Of a stretch of 64,000 nt of DNA, positions 53,656 to 61,603 are shown in pieces (position 1 is the stretch's first letter; each line of letters opens with the position of its first letter). Source of the stretch: Deltaproteobacteria bacterium. Its GTDB lineage: Bacteria; Desulfobacterota; Binatia; UBA12015. The notes below the pieces were generated by a model, which was not told the origin of the DNA, did not search any database, and worked only from the letters and a program-made list of their open reading frames with translations. The stretch is from assembly GCA_016874795.1 (NCBI GenBank), contig VGTG01000008.1, positions 1 through 64,000 of the forward strand. Reading direction: 5' to 3'. The position numbers and the translations under genes were made by a program.

Positions 53656-54441
53656 CTACGGCCTGCGAGCGGAGTCGATCGGCAGCGGGAAGAACGCGCG
53701 GCCGGCGCGCATCTCCTCCGCGAACCAGTCTGCGAACCCGTTCTTCATGACCCACTCGAGCCGGTCGCCTCTCCACTGCACGCGGTACGGGTCGAACGCA
53801 GGGCGGTTCTCGGACTGAAGCCTTCCGAGGGTTTCGATCACGTCCTCGTTGTCCTTGACGATGGCCGGTCGTGCGCCGAGCCTGCCGAGCCACGCGGCGA
53901 GCCCCGCATGACGGACGGGATCGAGAGGAAAGCCGAGGAAGCTCGCCGCGATCAGGTGCGGAGCGACGGCGATGTCCGCGATCGAGTACTCGCCGCAGAA
54001 GTAGTCGGATCGACCGAGCAGCGTTTCGAGCTCTCCGTAGAGGCGCTCGAGGTCGCGCTTCGCCGCTTCGTGCATCGCGGGATGCGATTCGCCGCGTCCG
54101 AACTCGACGACGGTGACGGCGTACGCGGCGGCATCGAGCTGGGTGTCCGCGAGGTCCTCGACGAGACGGCACTTCGCGCGAAGCTCGGGGTCGCGGGGCA
54201 GAAGCGGGGGCTCGGGGTAGCGGTCCTCGAGCCATTCGCAGATGACCGTGGAGTCGTAGAGTGAAAAGTCCCCTTCGACGAGGGCCGGCACCTCGGCGCG
54301 CGGATTCACGTCGAGGAAGTCCGTTCGATTGCAGTCGCCGTGCAGCGCGCGCACGCGCTCGAACGGCACGTCCTTCTCGTAGAGCGCGATCCGGACCTTG
54401 CGTGCATAGGGGCTGAAAACGTCGTCGAAGAGCGTCAGCAT
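53656..54441 (-). CDS. Glutathione S-transferase family protein
   Basis: The 261-residue protein has a thioredoxin-like N-domain (LFDDVFSPYARKVRIAL, VPALVEGDFSLYDSTVICEW with the cis-Pro and the glutathione-binding Ser) and an all-helical C-domain (FCGEYSIADIAVAPHL, the N-capping box). The active residue is probably Ser10 in FSPYARK. A ~45-residue C-terminal tail exceeds typical lengths. Substrate unknown. ATG at 54441. Confidence 0.92.
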   Translation of the reverse strand: MLTLFDDVFSPYARKVRIALYEKDVPFERVRALHGDCNRTDFLDVNPRAEVPALVEGDFSLYDSTVICEWLEDRYPEPPLLPRDPELRAKCRLVEDLADTQLDAAAYAVTVVEFGRGESHPAMHEAAKRDLERLYGELETLLGRSDYFCGEYSIADIAVAPHLIAASFLGFPLDPVRHAGLAAWLGRLGARPAIVKDNEDVIETLGRLQSENRPAFDPYRVQWRGDRLEWVMKNGFADWFAEEMRAGRAFFPLPIDSARRP

Positions 54442-54465
54442 GACGGCCCCCGTAGTACGGCTCCG

Positions 54466-54555
54466 CTAGCCCATCAGTACACCGACGACTGCGAGGATCA
54501 GGAGAAGGATGCAGGCCGCGGACTGGATGACGAAGCCGACGACGCGCTTCTCCAC
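54466..54555 (-). CDS. Possible 29-residue single-helix membrane peptide
   Basis: GTG at 54555, preceded by AAAGGAAG at a longer-than-ideal distance, starts EKRVVGFVIQSAACILLLIL followed by AVVGVLMG and a TAG. The frame is one hydrophobic helix with a charged N-terminus. In-frame sequence upstream (KIRLAIAEPRKEAYAQA) has no start before a TAA. It lies between the GST and fatty-acid hydroxylase genes. Could be a real small protein or the remnant of a longer one. Confidence 0.35.
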   Translation of the reverse strand: MEKRVVGFVIQSAACILLLILAVVGVLMG

Positions 54556-54604
54556 CGCTTGCGCATAGGCTTCCTTTCGCGGTTCGGCGATCGCGAGTCG
54601 AATC

Positions 54605-54634
54605 TTGCCGGTGAGGCGCGCTGTCCCTTATACC
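54605..54634 (+). promoter_or_regulatory. Sigma-70-like promoter, leaderless start
   Basis: TTGCCG (54605-54610), 18-bp spacer, TATACC (54629-54634). The expected transcription start is about 54641, the A of the hydroxylase ATG, and no ribosome site precedes that ATG. This points to a leaderless mRNA. Confidence 0.45.
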
Positions 54635-54640
54635 TTTTGC

Positions 54641-55381
54641 ATGGTCGTCGCGCGCTCGCAGACGGACGGGATCGCGGGCAAGGCCCGCCCCGCCCTCCGG
54701 AAGCCGAGCGAGGCGCCGCTCTCGGTCGAGCGACGCGAAGCCCTCCGCGCGGAGCTGCTCGAGGAGATCCCGAGCTGGTACGTGCCGTGGGTCCACCTCT
54801 TCGTTCCCTCGAGCATCGGGATCGCGGCGATCGTCGTGGCGCTCTCGTGGATTCGGGACCTGCACCCCGCGGAGCTCCTGACGGTGCCGGCCGTCTACCT
54901 CCTCGCGAACGCCTTCGAGTGGTGGGTGCACGTGAACGCGCTCCACCGGCGGAACCCGCTGGCGCCCGTCCTCTACGATCAGCACACGCCGCGCCATCAC
55001 ATGCTCTACTTGACGGACGACATGGCGATGCGCGAGAAGCGCGAGTATCGCCTCGTTCTGATCCCGGGTTACGGCCTGCTGCTGATCTTCCTCGGGCAGG
55101 TCGTCGTCAGCTCCGGGCTCTGGTGGCTCGGGCAGCCGAACGTCGCTTGCCTCTGGGTCGCGACGTCGATCGCCTACGCGGTGAGCTACGAGTGGCTGCA
55201 CTTCTCGTATCACCTGCCGCACGATCATCCGGTGTCCCGGAATCCGGTGATCCGGAAGCTCGCGCACCATCACGCCGTCCATCATGATCCCCGCATCATG
55301 CAGCGCTACAACATGAACGTGACGGTGCCGCTGATGGACTGGGTGATGGGCACGTCGGTCGAGGAAGCGCCTCCTCGTTGA
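54641..55381 (+). CDS. Fatty acid hydroxylase / sterol desaturase family membrane enzyme
   Basis: The 246-residue membrane di-iron protein has about four helices and the histidine clusters of the family: HVNALHRR, QHTPRHHM, HFSYHLPHDH and AHHHAVHHD. It should hydroxylate or desaturate a lipid chain; the substrate is not predictable. Start ATG at 54641 is placed at the probable transcription start (no ribosome site); an alternative GTG lies upstream at 54611 inside the promoter spacer. It reads toward the fadL-lipase pair. Confidence 0.88.
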   Translation: MVVARSQTDGIAGKARPALRKPSEAPLSVERREALRAELLEEIPSWYVPWVHLFVPSSIGIAAIVVALSWIRDLHPAELLTVPAVYLLANAFEWWVHVNALHRRNPLAPVLYDQHTPRHHMLYLTDDMAMREKREYRLVLIPGYGLLLIFLGQVVVSSGLWWLGQPNVACLWVATSIAYAVSYEWLHFSYHLPHDHPVSRNPVIRKLAHHHAVHHDPRIMQRYNMNVTVPLMDWVMGTSVEEAPPR

Positions 55382-55450
55382 CCTCGCGCTCGTAATCCTG
55401 GACCTTCTCCGCGGACCGGCCCGACGGGCCGTGATCGGGAGGAGGCGAGG

Positions 55451-56875
55451 ATGCGGGATCCGACCTGGTCGAGAATCGTCGCGTGGTGCGGAGCCGCGAG
55501 TTTCGCGAGCACGCTCCTCGCCGGAGCGCGGCCGGCCAGCGCCGCGGGCGTCGCCGTGCTCGAGCAGAGCCCGCGGCTCACCGGCACCGCGTACGCCGGA
55601 ACGGCGGCGCTCGCCGAGGACGCCTCGATGGCGTTCTTCAACCCGGCCGGGCTGACGCGCCTGCGCGGCGGGAGCCTCGTCGCGACGGCGACCGTGATCG
55701 ACGCGAACATCGACTTCGAGGCGAGCTCCGCGACGACCTGGGGTCAGCCGGTGACGGGCCCGAACGGCAGCCTCGACGCCGAGGGCGGCGACTCCGGCGC
55801 GCTGCCGACCTTCCACTTCGCGCAGCGCTTCGCCGATCAGTGGGTCGGCTATCTCGGCGTGACGAGCCCGGTCGACGTCATCACCGACTATCCCGACACC
55901 GGCGTCACGCGCTACGTCGCGACGCTCTCGCAGCTGAAGACGATCAACATCAACCCCGCCGTCGCGTTCGGTCCCCTGTACGACGTCTCGATCGGCGCGG
56001 GCTTCAACGCGCAGCACATGCGCGGGCACTTCAACCAGAAGCTCGCCGTGCCGACGATCCCGTTCGACACGCTCTTCGGGCGCTCGATCGGCGACATCAA
56101 CTCGCTCCTCGAGTCGAACGACTGGGCGTTCGGCTGGAACGCCGGCGTTCTGTGGGAGGCCGATCCGAGCCTGCGCTTCGGCGTCGGCTACCGCTCCGCG
56201 ATCCATCACACGCTGACGGGCACCGGAAGCCTGATCCTGCCGGTGGTGCCGATCGTGCTGCCGAACGGCGGGTCCGTACCCGTCGAGTCGCGCGCGGGCT
56301 TCACGGTGCCGCAGTCGGTGACGATGAGCGGTGCGTGGCAACCGGCAGGTTGGCTGCAGGTTCTCGCGGACGCGCAGTGGACGAACTGGAGCGCGTTCAA
56401 GCAGCTCTCCGTCGGCCTCTCCTATCCCGCGAGCGTGTCGCAGACCCTCGGTCCGCTCGCGGCGCTCCTTCCGACGAAGGACTCGATCTACGAGGGCTTC
56501 CGCGACACCTGGCGTGGCACCGTCGGCGCGCAGATCTTCCCCGACGACCGCTGGACGATCCGCTTCGGCTCCGGCTTCGACCAATCGCCGGTCTACAATG
56601 CGAATCGCACCATGCGGCTGCCGGACGGGAACCGCGTGCAGCTCGCGCTCGGCTTCGGCTACCGCATCTGGGAGCAGACGTTCGTCGACTTCGGGTACGC
56701 GCACTTCTTCATCGGCGACGGTACGGCCAACGAGACGAACGAGACGCTCGACGCGAGCAACATCCAGGGGACGTTCGAGACCTCGGCGGACGTCTTCGGG
56801 CTCCAGTTCACCTACAACTGGGAGCACGTTCCGTGGGAAGGATTGCCGTTCGTCTCGGAGGAGAGCGGGTCATGA
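55451..56875 (+). CDS. OmpP1/FadL-family outer-membrane transporter
   Basis: The 474-residue protein has a signal peptide (about 1-31, ending ASA) and the FadL N-terminus: GTAALAEDASMAFFNPAGLT, the NPAG motif of the hatch domain. A beta-barrel with alternating hydrophobic strands follows, ending FGLQFTYNW-like with a terminal extension. It imports long-chain fatty acids or other hydrophobic compounds. ATG after GGAGGCGAGG. Its TGA overlaps the lipase ATG by 4 bp, so uptake and hydrolysis of lipids may be linked. Confidence 0.92.
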   Translation: MRDPTWSRIVAWCGAASFASTLLAGARPASAAGVAVLEQSPRLTGTAYAGTAALAEDASMAFFNPAGLTRLRGGSLVATATVIDANIDFEASSATTWGQPVTGPNGSLDAEGGDSGALPTFHFAQRFADQWVGYLGVTSPVDVITDYPDTGVTRYVATLSQLKTININPAVAFGPLYDVSIGAGFNAQHMRGHFNQKLAVPTIPFDTLFGRSIGDINSLLESNDWAFGWNAGVLWEADPSLRFGVGYRSAIHHTLTGTGSLILPVVPIVLPNGGSVPVESRAGFTVPQSVTMSGAWQPAGWLQVLADAQWTNWSAFKQLSVGLSYPASVSQTLGPLAALLPTKDSIYEGFRDTWRGTVGAQIFPDDRWTIRFGSGFDQSPVYNANRTMRLPDGNRVQLALGFGYRIWEQTFVDFGYAHFFIGDGTANETNETLDASNIQGTFETSADVFGLQFTYNWEHVPWEGLPFVSEESGS

Positions 56876-58203
56876 GAGACGCGAAGGAGTATCGGCGACT
56901 CGGTCTCCGCGCGGTCCGTATCGGCGGCGGCGCGGCTGCGATCTTCGTCGCGGCGCTCATGGCGGCGTGCGGCCAGGACACGGAGCGGATTCCCGGAACG
57001 TTCTACGCGGCGCCCGATCCGCTTCCCGAGGGCGCACCGGGCCAGGTGATCCGCACGGAGTCCACGGGCACGCCGCCCGGCGGCGGCAACGCGCGCCGGA
57101 TCCTCTACCACTCGCGCACCGACGACGGCCGCGACATCGCGACCTCGGCGCTCTTCGTTCTGCCCGAGGGCGCTCCGCCTCCCGGCGGCTTTCCGCTGAT
57201 GGTGATGGCGCACGGCACGGCCGGGCTTGGCCGCACGTGCGGCGTCTCCGTGCAGCCGTACACGCAGCTCGCGGCGTTCGGGAACGAGCCGCAGTACGAC
57301 CAGTTCCAGCCGTACGTCGAAGCGGGCTTCGCCGTCGTCGCGCCCGACTATCAAGGGCTCGGCGTCGCCGGCCCGCCGTCGTATCTCGTCGGCCGCGTCG
57401 AGGCGCAGAACGTGATCGACGCGGCGATCGCGGCGCACCAGCTCGCGGGCGGACAGCTGTCGCAGGACACGTTCTTCTGGGGCCACTCGCAGGGCGGACA
57501 CTCGGCGGCGTTCGCGGCGGAGATGCTCTCCAACCGGAGCGTGCCGTTCCGGCTCCTCGGCACGATCCTCGTCGCGCCGGCGACGCTCCTGCGCGACGTG
57601 ATGCAGGACGTGATCGACGACGATCCGATCCCGCAGCCCGGCGAGGCGGCGGCGTTCCTCCTGTTCGCGGCGATCTCCTACGCGGAGACGTATCCCGACC
57701 TGAGCCTCGACCAGATCCTCACGACCTGCACGCCGGAGGAGAGCAAGCCCTGCGGCACGAACGCGGTGCCGATCGCTTCGCAGAACTGCCTCGAGACAGC
57801 GGTCGCGCCGTTCCTGCTGATGTCCGAGATCGGCACGAAGGCGTCGGCCTACGTGAACTTCCCGCTGCCGAGGGTGTGGGTCGACCGGCTCTGTCAGAAC
57901 GACGTCGGGAACGTGCCGATGCCGTCGCCCGTCTTGATGGTGCAGGGAACGGCGGACACGACGCTGCCGGTCGGCATGAACTGCGACTACTTCGAGAACG
58001 TCGCGTGTCCGCAGGACGTCTCGATCCAGTTCACGCTGTACCCGGGCGCGACGCACACGTCCGTCCCGAGCGTCGCCTTCCCCGACATCCTCGCGTGGGA
58101 GCGGGCGCGGCTCGCCGGCGACGCCGCGCCGTCGAACTGCGGTTCCCCGCCGGCGTTCTGCGGCACGGTGACGCCTTCGGAGTTCTGCGAATCGGGGGGT
58201 TGA
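56872..58203 (+). CDS. Secretory lipase-like alpha/beta hydrolase, lipoprotein
   Basis: The 443-residue exported protein has a lipoprotein signal (lipobox LMAAC) and an alpha/beta hydrolase fold: MVMAHGTAGLG (oxyanion region), GHSQGGHS with nucleophile S206, acid in VQGTADTTLPV and base in PGATHTSVP. The sequence resembles the secretory lipase (LIP) family, and paired cysteines (TCTPEESKPC, CGSPPAFC) suggest disulfides. Co-translated with the FadL-type porin (ATGA overlap), fitting extracellular lipid or ester hydrolysis with uptake of the product. Confidence 0.87.
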   Translation: MRDAKEYRRLGLRAVRIGGGAAAIFVAALMAACGQDTERIPGTFYAAPDPLPEGAPGQVIRTESTGTPPGGGNARRILYHSRTDDGRDIATSALFVLPEGAPPPGGFPLMVMAHGTAGLGRTCGVSVQPYTQLAAFGNEPQYDQFQPYVEAGFAVVAPDYQGLGVAGPPSYLVGRVEAQNVIDAAIAAHQLAGGQLSQDTFFWGHSQGGHSAAFAAEMLSNRSVPFRLLGTILVAPATLLRDVMQDVIDDDPIPQPGEAAAFLLFAAISYAETYPDLSLDQILTTCTPEESKPCGTNAVPIASQNCLETAVAPFLLMSEIGTKASAYVNFPLPRVWVDRLCQNDVGNVPMPSPVLMVQGTADTTLPVGMNCDYFENVACPQDVSIQFTLYPGATHTSVPSVAFPDILAWERARLAGDAAPSNCGSPPAFCGTVTPSEFCESGG

Positions 58204-58495: not shown

Positions 58496-58642
58496 ATGGG
58501 CGGCTTTCTCGCGATGATCGTCCTGGGATTGATCATCGGGGCGGTGGCCAAGCTCGTCATGCCGGGTGACGACCCCGGCGGGATCATCGTCACGATCCTG
58601 CTGCTGTTCGGCTACCGCATGCTGACGCGATCACGCGCGTAG
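58496..58642 (+). CDS. Shortened GlsB/YeaQ/YmgE-like membrane protein
   Basis: The 48-residue product has a strong AAAGGAGG site and begins MGGFLAMIVLGLIIGAVAKL, then VMPGDDPGGIIVTILL, exactly the first half of GlsB/YeaQ/YmgE proteins (normally about 82-90 residues). It then jumps to LLFGYRMLTRSRA, the family's last residues. About 35 central residues, including the second helix, are missing with the frame intact, as if deletion occurred between two ATCCTGCTG-like direct repeats. Function of the family is stress-related and unproven; whether this short form folds is doubtful. Confidence 0.65.
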   Translation: MGGFLAMIVLGLIIGAVAKLVMPGDDPGGIIVTILLLFGYRMLTRSRA

Positions 58643-58751: not shown

Positions 58752-60032
58752 TCAGCTCGTGCGCTGCCGGGACGGGTCGGGACGCGACCCCGTGTAGACG
58801 GCGCGCGGGCGCAGCTCCGAGGGCTGCTCGTACTCCTCGATCGCGTGCGCGATCCAGCCCGACATCCGTGCGAGCGCAAAGAGGAGCTCGCCCGTGCCGC
58901 GCGGCAAGCGGAACGCGTGCGTCAGCGCGGCGATGCCGAGATCGACGTTCGGCGCCGGGAGCCCACGCTTCGAAGCCGCCTCGAGGAACGCCTCGACCTC
59001 GCCGAGGCGCTTCGCGTCGCGCGCGGCCTCGCGGACCAGCACCAGCAGCGCACGAGCCCGCGGATCTCCTTCGGGATAGATCGCGTGGCCGATCCCCGGC
59101 AGCTTCTCGCCGCCTCGCAGGTAGCGATCGATCACGGGAGCGACGTCGCCCGCGTCCTCGATCTCCGCGAGAAGAGCTTCCGCCGCGACCGAGACCGCGC
59201 CGTGCCGCGCGCCGCCGAGCACGCCGAGACCGGCCCCGAGCGCGCCGTACGGATCGGCGCGAAACGCCGCCGCGATGCGCACGGCGAAGGTCGAAGCCGC
59301 GAGCTCGTGATCGGCGAGGAGAACGAGCGCGCCGTCGAGCGCTTCGAGCTGGCGTCCCGCCGCGGGCCGCGCGGAGACGCGATCCCAGACGCGCGAGGCG
59401 AAGCTCGCGGGCTCGCGTCGTCGCTCTTCGCGTCCACCGCCGCGCCGCCGCGGCAAGCACTCGACGAGAGTCGCGAGGAGACGCCGCGCCGCACCGGCGA
59501 CCGCTTCGCGGCGCAGGTCGTGCCGGAACGGATCGGTGCCCGCGAGTGCCGCGACCACGACGCGAACGCGATCGAACGCGAGCGTCCGAGCCGGAAGAAC
59601 GCATTGCACGGCGCGCCCGAGGGTCACGCCGGCGGGGTCCGGCCGCCACGGCGGCGGCTTCGCGAGCTCGCCCGTCCAGAGGAATTCCGCGACCTGCTCG
59701 AAGGTGTGCTTTCTCGCGAGCGCGATCGGATCGCGGCCGCGATAGTAGTACCGGCCGCCCTCGATCGTCGTCACCGCCGACTCGATCCGGACCTCCCGGC
59801 CGGAGCGATCGGGAACGCGACCGCGCCCAGCGAGCCGATCGACCTCGACGGGATCGAAGGTGCTCCCGCGGACGCCGCTCGCGCGCTCGCGGGTGAGGAG
59901 CCCGCGGCTGACGTACGCGTAGAGCGTCTCGCGCTTGATGCCGAGACGCGCCGAGGCCTCGGCGGCCGACAGCCGGGTCCGCGCCGGTGCGGATGGCGAG
60001 GATGACGCCCGATCCACCTCGACATTGATCAT
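58752..60032 (-). CDS. Citrate synthase-like protein with N-terminal HTH
   Basis: The 426-residue protein begins with a MerR/excisionase-like helix-turn-helix (about 18-65: LSAAEASARLGIKRETLYAYVSRGLL; only key part meant) followed by a citrate synthase fold. Catalytic residues are retained: H in LADHELAAST, H in GIGHAIYPEGDPRA and D in NVDLG. HTH-bearing citrate synthases of this sort are known next to a second citrate synthase; they may be enzymes, regulators or both. The ATG (60030-60032) lies inside a TTGATCA site, hinting at self-regulation. Confidence 0.87.
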   Translation of the reverse strand: MINVEVDRASSSPSAPARTRLSAAEASARLGIKRETLYAYVSRGLLTRERASGVRGSTFDPVEVDRLAGRGRVPDRSGREVRIESAVTTIEGGRYYYRGRDPIALARKHTFEQVAEFLWTGELAKPPPWRPDPAGVTLGRAVQCVLPARTLAFDRVRVVVAALAGTDPFRHDLRREAVAGAARRLLATLVECLPRRRGGGREERRREPASFASRVWDRVSARPAAGRQLEALDGALVLLADHELAASTFAVRIAAAFRADPYGALGAGLGVLGGARHGAVSVAAEALLAEIEDAGDVAPVIDRYLRGGEKLPGIGHAIYPEGDPRARALLVLVREAARDAKRLGEVEAFLEAASKRGLPAPNVDLGIAALTHAFRLPRGTGELLFALARMSGWIAHAIEEYEQPSELRPRAVYTGSRPDPSRQRTS

Positions 60033-60053
60033 GCGTCAAAATTGATCAATATA
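60025..60053. promoter_or_regulatory. AT-rich divergent promoter with paired TTGATCA sites
   Basis: TTGATCA (60025-60031) and TTGATCAA (60042-60049) lie 17 bp apart in the 74-bp gap between the two citrate synthase genes, in an AT-rich island (ATTGATCAATATAG). On the plus strand TTGATC could serve as -35 with AATATA/TATAGG as -10. The spacing of the two TGATCA palindromes, near two helical turns, fits operators for a dimeric HTH protein, with the adjacent HTH-citrate synthase as the obvious candidate. Confidence 0.45.
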
Positions 60054-60106
60054 GGGCGGTCTGTCAACGTTCCTCCGTCCGAACGAGCCAGCGAAGGGAG
60101 GAGCAC

Positions 60107-61603
60107 GTGGAAGAGCACCTCGAGGAGATCATGAACCGCGAGCCGCTAGTGGTGGCACCGGAAGGCTCGCTGGCCGCCGCAGCGGCGGCGATGCAGTCGC
60201 GCGGCGTCGGCGCCGCGGTCGTCGTCGACGGTCCGAGCGTCGCCGGCATCCTCACCGAGCGCGATCTCGCACGCGCCGCCGCAGCGGGTGTCCGTCCGGC
60301 GGACGTTCCGGTCTCGAGCTGGATGACGGCGGCACCGCTCACGATGTCACCCGCCGACGACCCGACGGAGGCGATCGACCGCATGCTCGGCTGCCACTTC
60401 CGGCACATTCCCGTGTGCGACGGCGAGCGGCTCGTCGGGATCGTCTCGCTCCGGCGTCTCGTCCGCGCGGCGAGCGTCGGGAAGGTCGATCCGTGGACAC
60501 CCGGAAGCAGCCGCGGCCTCGAGAACGTGGTCGTCGGCGAGACGCGGCTTTCGCACATCGACGGCGCGCGCGGGCAGCTCGTCCTCTCGGGGTACGACGC
60601 GACCGTGCTCGCGCGCGATCGCTCGTTCGAGGACGTGTGGGGTCTGCTGCACGACGGTGCCCTCCCCGAGGGAGAAGCGTTCGCGCGGCGGGTGGCGCGT
60701 CTTCGAGCGGAGCCCCTCGCGGTCGACCTGCTCGTCGCGCTCGCGCGACGGCCGGGCGCGCCGATGGCGCAGCTTCAGGCGGCGATCGCCGGAACCGGTG
60801 CGGCGTGGACTCTCCGTCCCTGGTACGAGCGCGAACCCGACGAGCTCGCGGAGGAAGCTCTCCGCATCGGCGCGATCGTTCCGGCGCTCGTGGCCGCGCT
60901 GTGGCGGCTCGGGCGCGGTCTCGAGCCCGTACCAGCGGATGCGTCGCTCGGGCACGCTGCCGACTACCTCCGCATGTTGCACGGCGTGTCCGCGGGCGGC
61001 GCGGAGGTGCGCGCGCTCGATCGCTACCTCGTCCTCGCGGCCGAGCACGGCATGAACGCCTCGACGTTCACGGCGCGCGTGATCGCCTCGACCGGGGCGG
61101 ACGTGGCGGCGGCGTTCGCCGGCGCCGCGGGTGCGTTCGCGGGGCCGCTGCACGGAGGCGCTCCCTCGCTCGTCCTCGACATGCTGGACGAGATCGAGAA
61201 GCCGGAGCGCGCGCCCGATTGGCTCGACGAAGCACTTCGTGGAAAGCGCCGGATCATGGGCTTCGGTCACCGCGTCTATCGCGCGGAGGACCCGCGCGCG
61301 GCGTGTCTACGCGAGACCGCCGTCGAGCTCGGCGGCGATCGCATCGAGCTCGCGCGGCTCGTCGAGGAAGAGGCCTTGCGGCGGCTGCGCGCGGCGAAGC
61401 CGGATCGAGCGCTGTACACGAACGTCGAGTTCTGGGCGGCGATCGTGCTCGAGCGCGTCGGCGTTCCTCGTGAGCTCTTCACGTCGACGTTCGCCGTGGC
61501 ACGTGCTGCAGGCTGGGCTTCGCACGTGATCGAGCAAGCGCACGACAATCGATTGATCCGGCCGACCGCGGTGTATCGCGGCCCCGAAGTGACGCCATGG
61601 TGA
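60107..61603 (+). CDS. CBS-domain citrate synthase-like protein
   Basis: The 498-residue protein has a tandem CBS pair at the N-terminus (about 8-125: IMNREPLVVAPEGSLAAA, GILTERDLAR, WMTAAPLTMSPADDP, GIVSLRRLVRA) joined to a full citrate synthase fold. H314 (AAEHGMNAST) and H388 (GFGHRVYRAEDPR) match catalytic histidines; the catalytic Asp position reads NVEFWAA, i.e. Glu, a substitution I believe occurs in some actinobacterial-type homologues. CBS pairs bind adenylates, so allosteric energy control is plausible. GTG start with GGAGGAGC site. Divergent from the HTH citrate synthase. Confidence 0.87.
   Translation: MEEHLEEIMNREPLVVAPEGSLAAAAAAMQSRGVGAAVVVDGPSVAGILTERDLARAAAAGVRPADVPVSSWMTAAPLTMSPADDPTEAIDRMLGCHFRHIPVCDGERLVGIVSLRRLVRAASVGKVDPWTPGSSRGLENVVVGETRLSHIDGARGQLVLSGYDATVLARDRSFEDVWGLLHDGALPEGEAFARRVARLRAEPLAVDLLVALARRPGAPMAQLQAAIAGTGAAWTLRPWYEREPDELAEEALRIGAIVPALVAALWRLGRGLEPVPADASLGHAADYLRMLHGVSAGGAEVRALDRYLVLAAEHGMNASTFTARVIASTGADVAAAFAGAAGAFAGPLHGGAPSLVLDMLDEIEKPERAPDWLDEALRGKRRIMGFGHRVYRAEDPRAACLRETAVELGGDRIELARLVEEEALRRLRAAKPDRALYTNVEFWAAIVLERVGVPRELFTSTFAVARAAGWASHVIEQAHDNRLIRPTAVYRGPEVTPW

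Follow-up and report, generated by a model that had tools for sequence, protein, structure and literature searches.

Here, we describe a divergent gene pair in a 64,000-nt stretch of DNA from Deltaproteobacteria bacterium (Desulfobacterota, Binatia, UBA12015; assembly GCA_016874795.1, contig VGTG01000008.1, positions 1 to 64,000), referred to below as the window. One gene encodes a citrate synthase (CS) fold carrying an N-terminal helix-turn-helix (HTH) domain (HTH-CS), and the other a CS preceded by a pair of CBS repeats (CBS-CS). We consider it very probable that HTH-CS is a transcription regulator dedicated to its own locus. Sequence comparison supports this with regard to architecture, operator, the link between operator and regulator, co-inheritance and residue pattern, and from these we infer DNA binding, repression, the ligand of the regulator and that of the CBS pair.

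The interpretation that we favour, and hold to be rather probable, is a two-gene metabolic switch, in which HTH-CS would act as a one-component regulator that binds an operator in the intergenic gap and controls both its own gene and the divergent CBS-CS gene, with the CS fold as the sensor. The domains of CS enzymes close upon binding of oxaloacetate. In the proposed mechanism, the winged HTH joined to the CS would recognise an operator of three half-sites within the 74-bp gap and most likely repress both genes by covering the -35 box. Oxaloacetate, or a close 2-oxoacid or dicarboxylate, would close the CS domains, move the two HTH heads of the dimer and free the DNA, and a pile-up of oxaloacetate would thereby lead to more citrate synthase. 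The CBS pair would add nucleotide control to the enzyme itself.

Putative operator in the intergenic gap

A preliminary description of the window had pointed to the divergent pair, the 74-bp gap and two TTGATCA sites 17 bp apart, one of them over a start codon, and all of these are confirmed in the sequence (sites at 60025-60031 and 60042-60048, the former overlapping the HTH-CS ATG at 60032-60030). The gap had also been called AT-rich. This holds for the 41-bp block round the sites, which has 41.5% GC against 69.4% for the whole window (equally AT-rich stretches make up 0.04% of 41-bp windows), but the gap as a whole (60033-60106) has 55.4% GC and is AT-rich only in relative terms. Although a close pair occurs once in the window against 0 expected, single TTGATCA has seven matches against 1.9 expected and was rejected as the functional unit; both sites are parts of a longer three-half-site operator, which is more likely to be that unit.

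The operator pattern, GTCAA-N2-TTGAT-N(2-8)-ATCAA when read towards the HTH gene, was written from the gaps of the first relatives and scored over 15 positions in the 230 bp upstream of the HTH core. The scored set comprised 60 non-redundant HTH-CS loci that match Y[AS]Y[VIL]S[RK][GA], with 17 duplicates or near-duplicates omitted and L137 (Caballeronia) not matching (loci and genomes are cited by our L and G numbers). At least 13 of the 15 positions were found in 52 loci, which belong to the window's class, Actinomycetota, Pseudomonadota and Deinococcota, and all 15 in 33; among 12,000 dinucleotide-preserving shuffles, 0.14% reached a score of 13 and none a score of 15. The length of the last spacer varies: 6 in 21 loci, 3 in 17, 7 in nine, and 2, 4 or 5 in five. 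Among the loci fetched after the pattern had been written (L112-L139), 19 of 23 reach 13. By contrast, none of 29 regions upstream of CBS-CS genes that lack an HTH-CS neighbour reaches 13, the best scoring 12. A conserved operator in the own or divergent promoter region is as expected of a local one-component regulator.

In the 6.3-Mb genome that contains the window, the strict pattern TCAANNTTGAYN{3,7}RTCAA has a single site, at the HTH-CS/CBS-CS gap. It is present in 10 of the 11 genomes tested (G740 has none), always including the HTH-CS upstream region; sites elsewhere number three in total (one in G031 and two in G017), and the backwards control gave one occurrence across all 11 genomes. 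The operator is also kept where the neighbour of HTH-CS is no CS (L009, L063, L132-L136 and L139). The earlier suggestion that the HTH protein regulates both genes thus gains comparative support from the footprint, its control and the single strict site.

In an alternative explanation, the HTH would be a mere relic, with HTH-CS serving as an isozyme subunit of the partner CS and an unrelated regulator acting at the operator. CS enzymes are dimers whose paralogues are encoded side by side, and the gap between sco5831 and sco5832 of Streptomyces coelicolor is bound by MtrA, according to the relevant part of PMC12323332. However, the operator follows HTH-CS and not the CS gene, it persists at the non-CS neighbours, and the HTH helix is conserved across phyla; we consider a relic highly improbable.

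In the direction of the target gene, the operator ends in TTGACn, and TAnnnT lies 16-18 bp downstream 13 times in the 52 loci, with five matches at all other distances from 8 to 39. In the MerR family, the operator sits between -35 and -10 elements that are spaced 19-20 bp apart; here, the putative operator overlaps the -35-like TTGACn. Repression is the preferred sign because binding to the operator would cover the -35 box.

Domains and residues of HTH-CS

HTH-CS matches PF00285 with 192 bits (cut-off 27) and MerR_1 with 21.7 bits (cut-off 21.6). Its structure model (mean pLDDT, the predicted local distance difference test score, of 88) consists of a winged HTH, a low-confidence link at residues 71-79 (pLDDT <50) and a CS fold. 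The modelled order of helices (H) and strands (E), H23-30, H34-42, E48-50, E57-59 and H61-68, is the helix-helix-wing-helix of a MerR-type winged HTH, and agrees with the MerR_1 score. The long dimerisation helix of the MerR family is absent, since the last helix stops at residue 68 and is followed by the link and the CS. When the HTH piece alone was searched against PDB sequences, no match was found at E<=1. Structure models support the CS fold in both HTH-CS and CBS-CS; residues from about 70 to 426 of HTH-CS align with solved citrate synthases with VIA-align Z up to 37.5, and 2c6x is the top PDB match of CBS-CS. The helix T[LVI]YAYVSRG (residues 36-44 in the window) is kept in 16 of 16 aligned HTH-CS rows; its conservation in the 60 loci is no independent count, because all of them were chosen by its core.

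Residue counts were made with L067 and L128 omitted, and are given in what we take to be the Escherichia coli numbering of the CS active site. The HTH-CS equivalents of H264, R314, D362 and R387 are kept in 58 of 58 proteins, those of H305 and R407 in 57, and that of H229 in 52. Thus, the catalytic His-His-Asp and the oxoacid Arg residues of an active CS are in place, each of these six positions in 57-58 of 58. The catalytic position is Asp in HTH-CS where the partner CS has Glu. On the other hand, the position that is K or R in the VYK/R motif of 34/38 partner CS, 32/32 CBS-CS and 19/20 other CS (a group that also omits L019, L020 and L130) is basic in only five of the 58 HTH-CS proteins and is Pro in 41, including that of the window. 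We take this position to be a CoA contact, for which a literature search gave nothing citable. With the 2-oxoacid and catalytic residues kept and the basic residue usually lost, HTH-CS would be a sensor rather than a plain enzyme. The kept active-site residues lend comparative support to the earlier idea that the fold may allow it to sense a substrate of CS.

These residues also bear on a second explanation, in which HTH-CS is bifunctional, combining DNA binding with activity as a citrate or methylcitrate synthase, as in PutA or BirA, and senses through catalysis. The retention of the catalytic His, His and Asp and of the 2-oxoacid Arg residues speaks for it. The loss of the basic position speaks against it, as would, if Caulobacter crescentus CitC is an HTH member, the failure of CitC to rescue gltA in the portion of PMC7083601 concerned. 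We therefore regard bifunctionality as unlikely.

A further possibility, which we consider doubtful but less so than a bifunctional enzyme, is that HTH-CS senses an acyl-CoA (acetyl- or propionyl-CoA) or citrate or methylcitrate instead of oxaloacetate, or that it activates instead of repressing. The products of the partner enzymes are citrate-like, and an sCache-PAS-SPOB_a sensor kinase gene, presumably of the citrate- or dicarboxylate-sensing type, lies near HTH-CS in the two Streptomyces loci checked. Activators, too, can bind next to a -35 box, which is where the operator is placed. The lost basic position, if we have assigned it correctly, argues against tight binding of CoA.

Several points weigh against HTH-CS as the oxaloacetate-sensing repressor of a two-gene switch. 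The MerR_1 match sits right at its cut-off; HTH-CS could still be an enzyme, because its catalytic triad is intact; and a simple scan of the window's gap gave no sigma-70-like promoter and no terminator. The operator pattern was partly derived from the loci on which it was scored (37 of the 60), and eight of the 60 fall below 13 (L019-L021, L069, L114, L125, L126 and L127). Among these, L114 and L127 score 12, L069, in which CS and HTH-CS form an operon, has a 13/15 match ahead of the CS, and the remaining five have nothing convincing.

Distribution of HTH-CS and its neighbours

Sampling of 58 genomes near the window gave HTH-CS matches at E<=1e-25 in 22, some of these matches being plain CS. 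Eight other loci have HTH-CS divergent from a CS that is 42-45% identical to the CS domain of the window's CBS-CS, and in two further loci the divergent partner is a CS of the canonical type. Among named-genome loci found with the N-terminal alignment of CBS-CS (n=16), HTH-CS lies beside a CS in 15 and CBS is present in three; nine Streptomyces loci have the divergent HTH-CS/CS arrangement. In profile searches at E<=1e-110, a strict cut-off that misses members, matches were found in 18 of 198 genomes from G530's phylum (G530 being a Streptomyces) and in three of 297 from the window's phylum. The occurrence of the same divergent arrangement in other genomes led us to reject the idea that the pair is unique to this genome. 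As judged from these comparisons, the HTH-CS/CS pair is old and widespread, and the CBS part is a local variation.

The neighbour of HTH-CS is a CS in 42 of the 60 loci (co-directional in L069, and with an open reading frame (ORF) between in L118). In L009, L063, L114, L135 and L136 it is an HMGL-like enzyme of the homocitrate/isopropylmalate synthase type, which has another fold than CS and carries out the same kind of condensation. Azospirillum has a CoA-transferase in this place and Pseudoroseomonas a DUF2332 gene, and in two Comamonadaceae HTH-CS adjoins a 2-hydroxyacid dehydrogenase operon that includes a tricarboxylate-transporter binding protein; at the rest of the loci the neighbours are of other or unassigned kinds. 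That HTH-CS is divergent from quite different genes is as expected of a local regulator.

A broader proposal, for and against which the scales seem to us evenly balanced, is that the HTH-CS proteins of several phyla form an unrecognised regulator family, in which a retired CS would sense oxaloacetate or other 2-oxoacids. Its members would share a common operator and be wired mostly to enzymes of any fold (CS or HMGL-like) that condense an acyl-CoA with a 2-oxoacid. The target in the window would have gained CBS, giving two inputs, an oxoacid acting on the gene and a nucleotide acting on the enzyme.

Some individual loci deserve mention. In L017 and L018, from the window's class, HTH-CS is divergent from a canonical GltA-type CS with the catalytic Asp, and because of this partner the main enzyme of the tricarboxylic acid (TCA) cycle may be under HTH-CS there. 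L019, L020 and L021 (window's class, family f9) carry the same HTH signature on a different CS branch, without the operator and without a divergent CS. A short cupin-like ORF seems, from sequence, to be placed between HTH-CS and the divergent CS in L118, and L117 (G894) has a perfect operator but no CS match in the divergent direction, which would fit a partner gene that is broken or lost. Two Streptomyces loci contain a sensor kinase (sCache_3_2, PAS, SPOB_a, HATPase) near HTH-CS, at L070:2927-4564 and L072:1434-3215.

CBS-CS and the distribution of the CBS fusion

The CBS-CS protein has two CBS stretches (78 bits) and a PF00285 match of 345 bits (cut-off 27). The T-E-R-D motif of the first repeat is found in 15 of 15 aligned proteins; in the second repeat, the window has Arg (R117) at the usual Asp. 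We take G-I-x-T/S-x-x-D to be the ribose motif of an adenylate-binding CBS repeat; the adenylate control suggested in the preliminary description would have one such site intact and one that has lost its Asp. In place of the catalytic Asp, CBS-CS has Glu441, as do 32 of 32 scored CBS-CS and 36 of 38 HTH-CS partners with their Glu, and Bacillus subtilis CitA likewise.

The preliminary description had considered CBS joined to CS to be rare. For one actinomycete class this does not hold: CBS-covering matches were found there in 35 of 198 genomes (Acidimicrobiia, going by the name of the Acidimicrobiales metagenome-assembled genome (MAG) G527), with at most seven candidates scored per genome, and uniqueness of the fusion to this genome was rejected on the same count. 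In the window's class such matches were found in its own genome and one other, of 148, and in its phylum in its own only among 395 (E<=1e-72, three candidates scored per genome). Constraining all CBS-CS together, as for a single origin of the fusion, costs 13.6 log units (approximately unbiased (AU) test, p 0.077). No common theme was seen among nine proteins scanned as neighbours of CBS-CS genes in four genomes of G527's class.

In the class of G527, 29 of 30 loci have no HTH-CS in the flanks covered, at most 1.5 kb on each side of CBS-CS, G527 itself being the exception. Two Acidimicrobiales MAGs (L066 and L067) have CBS-CS paired with HTH-CS in the arrangement of the window. Overall, the earlier view of the locus is partly supported, with its regulatory half much strengthened and its CBS half tempered.

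Origin of the pair

In the HTH-CS tree, which omits L067, L127 and L128, the window protein falls within an actinomycete clade (support 100/99), and two congeners fall within the other clade. Forcing it together with its own genus and family was rejected (AU p 7e-85). The tree of partner CS proteins shows the same two-clade division; it was built from the window, L066, L067, DP_23 and half of the further CBS-CS rows, together with the CS collection minus 25 locus ids, mostly repeats. For L066, the only Acidimicrobiales HTH-CS in the regulator tree, no particular relationship to the window HTH-CS was supported (AU p 0.055). The closest CBS-CS (69% identical) is in MAG DP_23 (L061/L065) of the window's class, where the gene consists partly of undetermined bases and is accompanied not by HTH-CS but by CoA-transferase family III genes.

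The right flank of the pair (tRNA_bind to CcmF-like) is 69-75% identical at the DNA level in three congeners that do not have the pair beside it, and the left flank is matched in congeners on contigs other than the right flank. The pair thus lies at a rearrangement point. The trees and the syntenic right flank without the pair make it most likely that both genes arrived jointly by transfer, and suggest acquisition of the HTH-CS/CS pair from actinomycetes. An assembly artefact or contaminating actinomycete DNA would also place both proteins in an actinomycete clade, apart from the same genus. However, the right-hand block is shared with congeners in which the pair is absent beside it, the left flank is matched on other congener contigs, and the closest CBS-CS comes from a MAG of the same class; contamination, scarcely credible on these grounds, was rejected on the flank matches. 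Two more CS genes of the canonical type (463 and 458 bits) are present in the genome, and the pair is therefore regarded as accessory.

Features of the locus

Coordinates are given in Table 1. No Shine-Dalgarno-like site was seen ahead of the HTH-CS ATG on inspection of the sequence, and the transcript may therefore be leaderless or the start misplaced. A small hydrophobic ORF adjoins the HTH-CS gene (58496-58642) and resembles what we take to be a small stress-type membrane protein. The left flank (53656-58203) contains GST, fatty-acid hydroxylase-like and FadL/TodX-like genes and one further ORF.

Table 1. Features of the HTH-CS/CBS-CS locus (positions in the window)
Feature	Position	Strand	Remarks
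HTH-citrate synthase, proposed transcription regulator	58752..60032	-	426 amino acids
CS fold, residues 83-410, proposed sensor	58803..59786	-	PF00285 and structure comparison
N-terminal winged HTH, residues 21-68	59829..59972	-	Pfam MerR_1 22-68, invariant alignment columns, model
Putative three-half-site operator ATCAA-TT-TTGAC-GCATG-ATCAA	60025..60046	-	13/15 consensus positions, last spacer 5
Perfect palindrome ATTGATCAAT	60041..60050	.	contains one of the two TTGATCA sites (60042-60048)
Shine-Dalgarno-like AAGGGAGGAG of the CBS-CS gene	60094..60103	+	from sequence
CBS-CBS-citrate synthase	60107..61603	+	498 amino acids, GTG start
CBS pair, residues 6-122	60122..60472	+	GILTERD intact; in GIVSLRR, R stands in place of the D of nearly all others
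CS domain, residues 137-487, B. subtilis CitA-like (2c6x)	60515..61567	+	Glu441 replaces the catalytic Asp

Known systems

Enzyme-derived one-component regulators include PutA, BirA, NadR and the ROK repressors, and the proposed regulator is like them in having a DNA-binding head on an enzyme fold, by which the enzyme's own pathway is sensed. To our knowledge, none with a CS fold has been described. The citA-citR locus of B. subtilis, which has CS I and a divergent LysR-type CitR, resembles the window in combining a minor CS of the same branch, with Glu for Asp, and a divergent regulator; it differs in that CitR is of the LysR type and CBS is absent, whereas the regulator proposed here is a CS paralogue. 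Among the matches listed in our literature searches, none dealt with CBS-CS or with a regulatory role of HTH-CS.

CcpC and CcpE are citrate-responsive LysR-type regulators (PMC8514465, PMC11315280). As described in the excerpts of these papers, a pathway metabolite controls TCA-branch genes in both, as proposed for HTH-CS, but the sensor fold and the regulator family are different. The S. coelicolor genes sco5831 (citA3) and sco5832 (citA4), both named citrate synthases, share an intergenic region as the genes of the window do, and one of them would be an HTH member; the part of PMC12323332 that treats them assigns the regulation to MtrA, unlike our reading of the window. Elsewhere, SCO5831 appears as more abundant in phosphate-replete S. 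lividans (excerpt of PMC9739823) and in a list as citrate-synthase-like (excerpt of PMC7324645).

The adjacent citB and citC of C. crescentus form another minor CS pair like that of the window. B. subtilis CitA and CitB share 37% identity; an E. coli gltA mutant is rescued by CitB but not by CitC, as would be expected if CitC is the regulator. The relevant passages of PMC7083601 mention no HTH. The citB promoter (CCNA_03757) was used as a negative control for IscR, as an excerpt of PMC11475020 has it, and in the part of PMC12542777 concerned a 'citrate synthase family protein' is merely listed.

Implications

Public records label HTH-CS proteins as citrate synthases ('citrate synthase family protein'), with the consequence that metabolic models may include a widespread regulator among their enzymes. 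With the operator consensus, a regulatory role can be tested in common laboratory strains such as Agrobacterium fabrum C58 or a Streptomyces. If the idea is true, HTH-CS would serve as a direct genetic handle on oxaloacetate, with a biosensor as a possible use, and it would account for the side-by-side CS genes of many bacteria.

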